64,000 nucleotides of DNA, taken from contig NZ_CP109132.1 of NCBI RefSeq assembly GCF_035918015.1, positions 4,712,001 through 4,776,000 on the forward strand, written 5' to 3'. Source of the stretch: Streptomyces sp. NBC_01754 (GTDB lineage Bacteria > Actinomycetota > Actinomycetes > Streptomycetales > Streptomycetaceae). The notes below the pieces were generated by a model that did not search any database, had not been told where the DNA came from, and saw only the letters and a list, made by a program, of their open reading frames with translations. The number at the start of each line of letters is the position of its first letter. Position 1 is the first letter of the stretch. The translations under genes were made by a program, and so were the position numbers. Positions 3,832 through 6,005 of this stretch are shown in pieces.

Positions 3832-4875
3832 TTACGCGGCGGCGTCGCCGTTGGTGCGGCGGCGCACGACGAACATCGCGCCGGCGCCGAGCACCACGGC
3901 CGCGCCGCCCGCGAGGGCGATCACCGGCGTCGAGGAGAGTGAACCGGTCTCGGCCAGGGTGCCCGTGAGCCGGGCGGTGCCGGCCTTCGGCTTCGTCGTC
4001 GGCGGGAGCGGGATCCTGCCACCCTCCTGGGGCTTGGCGCCGTCCTCGGCCCCGGCCCCGACGATCTGGAACCGGTAGCTGACATCCGTGAAGCACGGCT
4101 CGGACGCCTCGTCCTCGCCGAAGACGAGACCGCCGCCGAGGGTGAAGCCCGCACCCACCGGGGCGCTCTTCTTCACCTTGACGCGCAGTTCGATGTCGAC
4201 CTCGTAGCCCGGCTTGATCACGTCGGTCGCACCGACGATGCCCGCTGCCAGCCCTGAATCGGACACGTCCTTCCAGGTCCCCTCGTTGAGGGCCTGAAGC
4301 TCGACCTGCTTCGTGGTGAAGAGGTCGTCACCGTGCTTGTCCGTCGAGGCGCCCGCGAAGAACAGGACGTTGTCCACCGTGGTCCTCGAGTCGTTGTAGG
4401 CGTTGAGCCGGAAGGTGTGCCAGCCGCTGCCCCGGACGATCTTGGCGGCGAGACCCTCGACGGAGAGCTCCAGCGGGCGGGGCTCGCACGTCGCTGTGGG
4501 CTCCTCCTCGGGGCCGGCGTCCTCGGAGCGCGTGGGGGTCGGCTCCGGGGGCGTGCCCGGTGTCTCGGACGGTGTGGCGGAAGGCTCCGTGCCGCCGCCC
4601 TCCCCGCCCTCCTCGGGCTTCGCGGTCTCCTCGCCCTCCTCGGTGGTGTCACCCGGGGTCCCGGGCTTGTCGGTGTCGGGGGCGGCCGACTCGTTCCCCT
4701 CCGGAGTGGTGTCCGTGCCGGACGACGGGGAGGGAGACGGGGAGGCGGACTCCGGGGAGCTGCTCTCGGTCGTCGCGGGGTCCGGGTCGGCGTACGCGGC
4801 CGACGCCGAGAGGAGGACGACGGGTGCGACGACGGCGGTGGCGGCGGCGAGCGCCATGCTGCGGCGAAGCTTCAT
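3832..4875 (-). CDS. LAETG-anchored cell-surface protein (sortase substrate)
   Basis: Secreted wall protein of 347 residues. It has an N-terminal signal peptide (MKLRRS, then an Ala/Val-rich core ending near SAAYA), followed by about 100 residues rich in Ser, Thr, Pro, Glu and Gly. A folded region follows. Near the C-terminus come LAETG, a hydrophobic helix and a VVRRR tail. This is the cell-wall sorting signal of the LAXTG type used by class E sortases in Streptomyces, which would attach the protein to peptidoglycan. The start was set at the methionine beginning the signal peptide; the frame is open 35 codons further upstream but without a signal there. No sortase gene is in the window. Function of the folded part is unknown. 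Confidence 0.75.
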   Translation of the reverse strand: MKLRRSMALAAATAVVAPVVLLSASAAYADPDPATTESSSPESASPSPSPSSGTDTTPEGNESAAPDTDKPGTPGDTTEEGEETAKPEEGGEGGGTEPSATPSETPGTPPEPTPTRSEDAGPEEEPTATCEPRPLELSVEGLAAKIVRGSGWHTFRLNAYNDSRTTVDNVLFFAGASTDKHGDDLFTTKQVELQALNEGTWKDVSDSGLAAGIVGATDVIKPGYEVDIELRVKVKKSAPVGAGFTLGGGLVFGEDEASEPCFTDVSYRFQIVGAGAEDGAKPQEGGRIPLPPTTKPKAGTARLTGTLAETGSLSSTPVIALAGGAAVVLGAGAMFVVRRRTNGDAAA

Positions 4876-5434
4876 GTGGGCCTCAACGGTCCGTGGTACC
4901 ACGTGGGTTGCGGTACGGCGAAAGTATGGACGGCCTGCCGTTGTGGGGCACGGAACGAGCCGGGTGTTTTCGCCGTTCAAGACTTGTGAACCGGGTCAAC
5001 GGTTGTCTGTGAGCTCACAGAAACTTTATGTGGCGCCCGCCACACCGGGCCGGTGTGCGGTGCGCGGACGCACGGGCGGGCAGTGCCTGGACGGGCGGTG
5101 CGCGCGGGTGGGGCGGATGAGCGCCGTCTCCGCGGGTGGCCGGTCCCGGGCGTCCCCGGGGCCGGCCGTCCGCGGGCGGGTGGGCCGGACGGCTGTACCC
5201 TGCCGACCGGTCACATGCGCCGGAACGCGGTCCCACGGCGTACCTGCGGCACGCCACGCGCTCCGGCGGAACCACGCGTGGTCCCCTCTCGCTCCCGCCC
5301 CTGGCCGGCGCGGGCACCCGGACCAACGAGGGTTCCGGGAGCCGGTCACGCGCCGTACGGGTGAGAGCGGGCCCGAAGGACCGGGTGGGGCCCTCCTGCG
5401 GCCCCGCGTTCCCGTACGGCGCCGGCGCGGCGCC
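4876..5434. promoter_or_regulatory. 559-bp gene-free region with 14-bp palindrome
   Basis: No open frame here has convincing codon use. A perfect palindrome CTGTGAGCTCACAG lies at 5007-5020, about 130 bases upstream of the surface-protein start, in a locally AT-richer stretch. It could be an operator for that gene. The rest (5040-5434) is very GC-rich and I see nothing recognisable in it. Confidence 0.35.
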
Positions 5435-5737
5435 TCACACCCGGCCGCGGCACAACTCCAGCAGCGTCATGGCGAGGGCCGTGCCCGGCTTGCCCAGGGC
5501 GTCGCTGTAGTGGCCCAGGACGTCCATCTCGCGGGAGAGGTTCACCCGGCGGCCGCCGGAGGTGATCCTCGCCTCCTGGATCACCGCCGAGACCGCCATG
5601 CGTTCCTGGACGAGGCCGATGATCCGGTCGTCCAGGGTGTCGATGCGCGTCCGGGCGTCGCCGATCAGGGCGGCGGCCTCGTCGGTGTGCGCGCCGGTGC
5701 GCTCGGCGGCCGTCTTCGTGGGTGCGGTGCTGGTCAT
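5435..5737 (-). CDS. Chorismate mutase, AroQ type
   Basis: Small all-helical enzyme of 100 residues that converts chorismate to prephenate, the first committed step to phenylalanine and tyrosine. The AroQ pattern is clear: an N-terminal helix with RTRIDTLDDRIIGLVQERM, a middle helix with basic residues, and a GKPGTALAMTLLELCRG C-terminus. AGGAG lies six bases before the ATG. It is a stand-alone mutase domain with no fused prephenate dehydratase. The mRNA leader upstream encodes a short Phe/Tyr-rich peptide followed by a GC-rich hairpin, so it is probably controlled by attenuation in response to its own end products. It is divergent from guaA. Confidence 0.85.
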   Translation of the reverse strand: MTSTAPTKTAAERTGAHTDEAAALIGDARTRIDTLDDRIIGLVQERMAVSAVIQEARITSGGRRVNLSREMDVLGHYSDALGKPGTALAMTLLELCRGRV

Positions 5738-5792: not shown

Positions 5793-5818
5793 CGCCCCGG
5801 GCCTGTCGGCCCGGGGCG
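5793..5818 (-). terminator. Attenuator hairpin upstream of chorismate mutase
   Basis: On the minus strand CGCCCCGGGCC, a TGTC-complement loop of four bases, and GGCCCGGGGCG form a perfect 11-bp stem, followed by TTCTGACGTT. It lies 24 bases after the leader-peptide stop and 55 bases before the mutase start, the position expected for a transcription attenuator. A second hairpin, GGCA-C-CCGG with a four-base loop, at 5860-5881 begins directly after the Phe/Tyr codons. A GGCCCG at 5869-5874 (minus strand) could pair with the terminator's left arm at 5808-5813. The precise antiterminator was not resolved. Confidence 0.65.
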
Positions 5819-5842
5819 CCTGGAAAGATGCTTGTCAGTTGC

Positions 5843-5914
5843 TCAAGCAGCACGACCATGGCAGCCGGCGGGCCGGGTGCCATAGGTAAAGACGAAGGTC
5901 GTGTGCTGACGCAT
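5843..5914 (-). CDS. Aromatic leader peptide of the chorismate mutase gene
   Basis: A 23-codon open frame starting with ATG at 5914. Residues 7 to 11 are Phe-Val-Phe-Thr-Tyr, a dense run of the two amino acids made downstream of chorismate mutase. TTT and TAT are used, both rare in such GC-rich DNA. No Shine-Dalgarno precedes it; the -10 element ends eight bases upstream, so the message probably begins at this ATG. The stop at 5843-5845 is followed by a terminator-like hairpin and then by chorismate mutase. The composition and placement match classical attenuation leaders. The function is inferred, not known to me from the literature for this gene. Confidence 0.7.
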
Positions 5915-5921
5915 GGGCGCA

Positions 5922-5951
5922 AGTATGACCCCGTCCCGGTACCGCGTCCAA
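5922..5951 (-). promoter_or_regulatory. Promoter of leader peptide and chorismate mutase
   Basis: On the minus strand TTGGAC (5946-5951), an 18-base spacer and CATACT (5922-5927) form a good housekeeping-sigma promoter. Seven bases separate the -10 from the leader ATG at 5914, predicting a leaderless transcript. Confidence 0.65.
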
Positions 5952-6005
5952 CGTCCGGCCCGCATCGTGAGACGGGAGCCCGGCGGGGGAGAACCGCGGG
6001 CCCGG

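Follow-up and report, generated by a model that had tools for sequence, protein, structure and literature searches.

Leader peptides in aromatic amino acid biosynthesis

At pheL-pheA of E. coli, the classical switch among the 1:2, 2:3 and 3:4 pairings of the leader RNA controls expression, as is proposed here for a chorismate mutase (CM) gene of Streptomyces sp. NBC_01754. The pheL frame is not leaderless, whereas the leader in the window (the whole 64,000-nucleotide stretch of DNA that was analysed, to which all coordinates refer) starts beside a -10 element. The pheA gene encodes a fusion of CM and prephenate dehydratase, in contrast to the separate 100-amino acid CM encoded in the window. 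The AroR-aroF attenuator of Corynebacterium glutamicum, reportedly studied by Neshat et al. in 2014, controls DAHP synthase whereas the window leader precedes CM, and the two are likened by description rather than by alignment of their sequences.

As in the window, pheL-pheA has a Phe leader peptide before a gene whose product includes CM activity (PMC11802643), and AroR is an actinobacterial leader with aromatic codons (Phe-Tyr-Phe) that precedes an enzyme belonging to the same pathway (PMC11802643, PMC7356990, PMC4046766). According to one account of AroR-aroF, Phe limitation raises transcription and Tyr availability has no effect (PMC11802643), a response which agrees with the folding profile predicted here; another account describes control by both Phe and Tyr (PMC7356990). 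For the CM of C. glutamicum, forming a complex with a DAHP synthase is said to be required for activity, and this complex formation is said to be inhibited by Phe (PMC11802643). Within Streptomyces, trpL, ilvL and leuL are leaderless short peptides with control codons located before amino acid genes (PMC8079986 Table 4; PMC1262725), as the window leader is predicted to be.

A reannotation of S. lividans presents eight leader peptides, none of them for Phe or Tyr, and the word chorismate is absent from its main text (PMC8079986). In its treatment of Phe and Tyr operons of Actinobacteria, a 2005 survey reports no conserved RNA structures upstream of these operons (PMC1262725), and it is there, where the shikimate pathway branches towards Phe and Tyr, that the candidate control point described here lies in nearly every genome of the genus examined. 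A web database of predicted attenuators (Merino), cited by PMC1173090, may include the present attenuator. No description of it was found in the open-licence PMC literature, with subscription papers and prediction websites outside the scope of the search. The first-pass annotation of the window, a reading of the sequence alone, knew of no CM attenuator in Streptomyces.

A ribosome-mediated transcription attenuator of the classical (trpL/pheL) type very probably controls CM. On the anatomy that was tested, the CM attenuator belongs with the classical leader-peptide attenuators. The sequence contains a short frame with codons for products of the pathway, which is present at all 80 loci compared; folding and covariation predict an intrinsic terminator between this frame and the gene; and folding predicts an antiterminator that excludes the terminator and is favoured by ribosome stalling.

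Organization of the chorismate mutase locus

The leader, its hairpins and the CM gene all lie on the minus strand, the leader region separating CM from guaA, which is divergent on the plus strand. The gene that is presumed to be regulated (5435..5737) encodes a CM of the AroQ type (PF01817) whose protein scores 120.5 bits against NF005894, for which the cut-off is 73. Among its closest solved relatives are 2qbv (Rv0948c; E 5.9e-12) and 5hub, which we take to be the C. glutamicum chorismate mutase. The putative promoter (5922..5951, minus strand) consists of a -35 element TTGGAC at 5951-5946, a spacer of 18 nucleotides and a -10 element CATACT at 5927-5922. The leader-peptide frame of 23 codons follows at 5914-5843 (minus strand), its ATG 7 nucleotides from the -10 element, and contains the control codons Phe7 (TTC, 5896-5894), Phe9 (TTT, 5890-5888) and Tyr11 (TAT, 5884-5882).

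Folding places a protector or pause hairpin (1:2) at 5858..5883 on the same strand, formed by AUGGCA..UGCCAU with an inner CCGG/CCGG. A pause hairpin had been proposed to begin right after the Tyr codon; the hairpin is there, although it begins within that codon, at 5883. Region 2, the 5' side of the antiterminator as folded with a placed ribosome, occupies 5856..5874 (GGCCCG-CC-GGC-U-GCC-A-UGG, minus strand). A small hairpin, UGCUUG..CAAGCA (5829..5849, minus strand), overlaps the leader stop codon and lies inside the antiterminator loop. Region 3, CCAGGCGCCCCGGGCC (5808..5823, minus strand), doubles as the 5' arm of the terminator and the 3' side of the antiterminator. The predicted terminator hairpin (3:4) of 11 bp, CGCCCCGGGCC/GGCCCGGGGCG with the loop GACA, is located at 5793..5818 (minus strand), where the first-pass annotation had placed a GC-rich hairpin of this length.

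Downstream of CM, a 382-amino acid protein is encoded at 3832-4980 on the minus strand. It has a C-terminal LAETG motif, a hydrophobic stretch and a basic tail and in these respects looks like a sortase-anchored surface protein; a Pfam search with this protein gave no match.

Conservation of the leader frame and its promoter

The leader frame was found in all 80 named CM loci, these being the 80 best among 423 confirmed ones, with 78 titled Streptomyces. It starts 157-323 nucleotides upstream of the CM match, the inspected region being 330 nucleotides long. Among these best 80 loci, position 9 is TTT and position 11 is TAT without exception, while position 7 is TTC in 74, TAC in three, TCC in two and GTC in one. 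Conservation of Phe and Tyr codons across Streptomyces had been named as a check on the proposal, and it is seen at positions 9 and 11. For comparison, two neighbouring genes of the window use TTT for none of their 32 Phe codons and TAT for none of their 33 Tyr codons. Of the 114 model matches, 23 reverse-strand or secondary ones were dropped and 91 kept. In the more divergent rows from the window's own family (n=74), TTT is kept in 71 and TAT in 71. These 74 exclude one member of the genus (L187), for which the script found only a hairpin of three pairs and no proper terminator; where 75 family leaders are counted below, this member is included. Since the scripts that pick leaders take the most aromatic short open reading frame, aromatic content alone is not independent evidence.

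Trp occurs anywhere in the peptide in 22 of 75 leaders of the window's family, and within the six codons before Tyr in 18 of 74. A subset of the family's CM leaders has Trp beside Phe, as in FWFTYG and QWFSYG (L158, L162, L165, L139, L141 and others). Five leaders (L041, L044, L122, L129 and L136) carry frameshifts 3' of the Tyr codon, such that the C-terminal part of the peptide is lost and the RNA is kept, which suggests that the latter half of the frame is maintained as RNA and not as peptide.

Of 81 upstream regions, 80 contain a recognisable -10 hexamer, which reads exactly CATACT in 77, and in 79 of the 81 it lies 6-7 nucleotides before the start codon. A Shine-Dalgarno sequence (GGAG/GAGG-like) before the leader start was seen in none of the 81 regions. 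At the level of sequence, this spacing, together with the lack of a Shine-Dalgarno sequence, supports well the view that the frame is probably leaderless, as the first-pass annotation had described it. The same annotation called the promoter a good one, which holds in part: the combination of TTGGAC, an 18-nucleotide spacer and CATACT is plausible, with the -35 element read from the window alone, but a strict sigma-70 scan of the window found no promoter. A strict terminator scan of the window likewise passed over the hairpin at 5818-5793, which lacks a long U-run, and both scans came up empty because of their consensus rules.

Further upstream, at 5961-5972 (minus strand), lies a TCTCACCATCCG-like block that recurs with at most two mismatches in 73 of the 81 upstream regions and is positioned 30-33 nucleotides before the leader -10 element in 68 of the 73. 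It is located between the divergent promoters of CM and guaA, and is a possible operator or upstream element.

Predicted switching between terminator and antiterminator

In the proposed mechanism, the RNA would start at or beside the leader ATG and a ribosome would load on the leaderless mRNA and follow RNA polymerase. Where charged tRNA-Phe (and tRNA-Tyr) is ample, the ribosome would reach the stop codon and mask region 2, upon which region 3 would pair with region 4 to form the terminator and CM would be left untranscribed. When charged tRNA-Phe is scarce, or to a lesser degree when tRNA-Tyr is, the ribosome would stall at Phe7, Phe9 or Tyr11 and block formation of hairpin 1:2. Region 2 would then take region 3 in a pairing of up to 15 bp that has the small hairpin nested in its loop, and the resulting antiterminator would allow transcription to read through into CM.

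The predicted fold of 5907-5786 has an energy of -64.9 kcal/mol, compared with -43.2 +/- 3.8 in 200 shuffles (z -5.7). When the window RNA is extended up to region 3 and a ribosome occupies Phe7 or Phe9, folding yields the antiterminator with the small hairpin inside it at -31.8 kcal/mol, paired as GGCCCG..GGC.GCC.UGG / CCA.GGC.GCC..CGGGCC. The value with the ribosome at Tyr11 is -22.6 kcal/mol, and with the ribosome at the stop codon the terminator alone is left. Across the 74 family leaders, the share of the terminator 5' arm that the leader is predicted to capture averages 0.86 with the ribosome at Phe9 (above 0.5 in 74 of 74), 0.63 at Tyr11 (above 0.5 in 97%) and 0.09 at the stop codon (above 0.5 in none), compared with 0.40 when no ribosome is placed. 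In a scan of codons around the Tyr codon, the capture profile peaks at -4 to -2, which corresponds to Phe7 to Phe9. Against a shuffled mean of 0.58, 30 of 37 leaders exceed their own shuffles at p <= 0.05, the null having been computed for every second family row (37 of 74). These profiles assume a ribosome footprint of 12 nucleotides downstream. Duplex energies stand out from shuffles only modestly, with a median z of -1.6 and 47% of 88 at p <= 0.05.

The idea that stalling at Phe and Tyr codons drives an attenuator is thereby supported, in that protector, antiterminator and terminator are mutually exclusive and the predicted switch peaks at Phe7-Phe9. Of the two amino acids first suggested as signals, Phe has the best-placed codons and is probably the main one, whereas the Tyr codon falls on the flank of the peak (0.63 versus 0.86) and so Tyr is probably a weaker signal. 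Outside the window's family the predicted ribosome-position switch is less clear, with capture of 0.59 at the position of Phe9, 0.44 at Tyr and 0.12 at the stop codon in 17 rows. Two codons before Tyr and at Tyr, respectively, capture is 0.66 and 0.36 in leaders of DAHP synthase (n=26), and 0.71 and 0.61 in CM leaders from outside the family (n=13).

Folding gives the terminator hairpin 12-18 pairs in the 74 family leaders, and the U-run that follows it is weak: among 80 leaders in which the end of the stem was found, 54 have at most five T in the 14 nucleotides past it. Leader peptides can also control translation, and the weak U-run would suit a leader in which stalling affects the translation of CM or the stability of its mRNA instead of transcription termination. 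The position of the hairpin argues against this, as it ends 55 nucleotides before the CM start and leaves the ribosome-binding site of CM outside. Moreover, a T-run directly follows the hairpin in some relatives from other families (L200, L218 and L224), and in some relatives the terminator stem is longer (to CCAGG/CCUGG) and is followed by CGTTT. The chance that stalling acts on translation or stability rather than termination is accordingly judged to be very small, and transcription attenuation remains the preferred reading.

Covariation in the leader RNA

Compensatory changes in the hairpins had been named as a check on the proposal, and they are found in the terminated structure, for which 73 cells are changed on both sides of a pair compared with 23.9 +/- 3.6 in shuffled alignments (none of 500 shuffles reaches this number). 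Slid versions of the same structure give 9-33 such cells. This test used a MAFFT alignment (A3) that was fitted to no structure and includes 72 of the 74 family leaders (L081 and L106 being out); alignments A4 and A5 were fitted to the leader covariance model R1 and are biased towards the structure, and the covariation claim rests on A3 instead. Among the 72 leaders, the six AUGGCA/UGCCAU pairs of hairpin 1:2 are formed in 94% of cells, and the small hairpin UGCUUG..CAAGCA is paired in 88% of cells with five of its six pairs changed on both sides. A longer form of the terminator, CCAGGCG..CGCCUGG, covaries in relatives. In 76 close Streptomyces sequences, three pairs are changed on both sides versus 1.7 +/- 0.9 in shuffles, a number reached by 83 of 500; these sequences are uninformative because they have changed too little.

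For the antiterminator, a count by columns shows no excess (4 cells versus 2.9 +/- 1.5; 166 of 500 shuffles reach it), but this count is hampered by the GGCCCG arm, whose register differs by one column from clade to clade. Inspection by eye shows regions 2, 3 and 4 changing in concert in two leaders (L005 and L050; GGUCC/GGACC/GGUCC) and, at another pair, in a third (L008; GUC/GAC/GUC). One leader with the arm CGGACC (L170) and eight with the arm CGGUCC (the L171 group) show no match to the leader there, and in several leaders with GGUCC (L016, for example) the match is through G-U only. Support for the antiterminator therefore comes from folding and the three concerted cases, not from column statistics.

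Nucleotide conservation in the Streptomyces leader goes beyond what pairing requires and extends to unpaired positions across a large part of the first 100 nucleotides. A spacer resembling CAGAC or CGACTT recurs just ahead of the terminator; it is present in 55 of the 75 leaders counted for the window's family, in 11 of 12 from family f19 and in 6 of 15 others, compared with 6% in base shuffles, the pattern having been picked after looking. Both features would fit a leader that mainly bound a regulatory protein or another trans-acting factor, with the Phe and Tyr codons as bystanders. There is a precedent in the LEU element, located ahead of leuA in Actinobacteria, for which binding of this kind was proposed and whose conserved leader peptide was argued not to function in classical attenuation (PMC1262725). 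Such a role is nevertheless highly unlikely to be the main one, since the terminator covaries and the antiterminator is predicted to depend on the position of the ribosome. Frameshifts after the Tyr codon are tolerated in the five leaders noted above. Outside the genus, conservation shrinks to a peptide with aromatic residues followed by YG and the terminator, and an aromatic-YG leader precedes CM or DAHP synthase in 34 of 41 non-genus genomes. These observations favour attenuation over a binding site.

Distribution and linkage to chorismate mutase

In the genus, 270 of 273 genomes carry a match to R1, and in the order as a whole 278 of 293 do. Of the genus genomes that lack a match, G091 has a CM that lies at the end of a contig, and G041 and G065 likewise lack a CM match. 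Absence of the leader where CM is conserved had been put forward as an outcome that would count against the proposal; across the 80 named loci and the genus genomes, the leader proved to be conserved along with CM. In the other families of the order, ten genomes have no R1 match and nine of these have a CM match. A leader is visible in each of the three loci that were read from R1-negative genomes (L188, L191 and L194), indicating that R1 misses some. At the gathering score, no Rfam family was found in the window or in L147, L150 and L208. The single weak match, RF02868, scores 22.7 bits against a cut-off of 112 and reflects chance.

CM is present on the same strand in all 84 loci fetched with R1, the set in which adjacency was read, and starts 100-420 nucleotides downstream of the 5' end of the stretch that the model covers. 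An open reading frame filter skipped five of the 84 loci, whose leaders (L131, L136, L176, L183 and L123) are still readable. The joint presence of leader and CM, which persists down to about 41% CM identity, bears on whether the small frame and its terminator could belong to an independent short RNA unconnected to the regulation of CM. So does their joint absence: four genomes that are at least 99% complete and lack a CM match (G041, G065, G227 and G265) also lack the leader. Two genomes (G256 and G284), whose assemblies run to about 800 contigs, have a leader match but none for CM. With predicted folding also varying with ribosome position, an independent short RNA is extremely improbable, and a leader that attenuates CM is preferred.

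Streptomyces are known for antibiotics, many of which are made from aromatic precursors. If the supply of Phe gates CM by attenuation, removal of the terminator would provide a simple handle on precursor supply in laboratory producers.

Related leaders on chorismate mutase and DAHP synthase

The attenuator was first seen as a device of Streptomyces and of CM, a view that needs to be widened since similar leaders occur in other families, preceding CM in at least six of them and type I DAHP synthase in two. A second model, R2, built from divergent members, matches 84 of 394 genomes of the class. Of the 45 non-genus genomes matched, 41 were followed up, with G474, G620, G639 and G645 left out. 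An aromatic leader precedes type I DAHP synthase in 26 of the 41 and CM in eight; the remaining seven have a bare terminator and no leader, which shows that R2 also picks up plain terminators. These eight CM leaders and five more from a neighbouring family in the window's order make up the 13 CM leaders from outside the window's family.

The aromatic residues end in YG in 25 of the 26 DAHP-synthase leaders and in all 13 CM leaders from outside the family. Trp codons occur in 23 of the 26 DAHP-synthase leaders versus none of the 13 CM leaders. Three further CM leaders from outside the family that are not among the 13 (L188, L191 and L194) have no Trp in the aromatic cluster, though L188 has one Trp at its end. 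Most of the DAHP-synthase leaders come from one family (f19, presumably Micromonosporaceae) and the two from family f30 are without Trp, which means that phylogeny confounds the Trp pattern. In the DAHP-synthase leaders, the small hairpin does not stand out on inspection by eye. A common origin of the CM and DAHP-synthase leaders is likely; it is not proven because similar GC-rich terminators occur without a leader.

Nine genomes with a DAHP-synthase leader were searched for CM_2 loci. Five of them yielded eight loci and the other four gave no CM_2 match. An aromatic-YG leader was found in none of the eight loci, one of which (L235) is cut by a contig end and some of which may not be orthologous CM, whereas the seven positive controls were found.

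A tentative reading of these distributions, held with slightly less than even confidence, is that a single ancient actinobacterial aromatic attenuator, consisting of an aromatic-YG leader and a GCCCCGGGCC-type terminator, was passed between type I DAHP synthase at the first step of the pathway and CM at the Phe/Tyr branch. Its control codons would have been re-tuned to the branch, with Phe, Tyr and Trp on the shared first step and Phe and Tyr alone on CM, and CM would be without an attenuator where DAHP synthase has one. That two enzymes of one pathway may have exchanged an attenuator is the more surprising part of the analysis. The CM and DAHP-synthase leaders also constitute a natural experiment in which control codons can be compared with where in a branched pathway the enzyme acts.

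The genome from which the window is taken has a type II DAHP synthase, near which no aromatic leader was found on the same strand, and no aromatic-YG leader was found in the whole locus. Divergent to this gene is a short Trp leader, MFAQTTQNWWWTAHPAAH, at 1480-1536 of locus L240 (near C1:1770599, plus strand). Its first residues resemble those of CM leaders of relatives (MFPQTT in L047, MFTQTT in L130 and MFAQTQ in L139), a likeness in sequence that hints at a shared 5' part of the leader.
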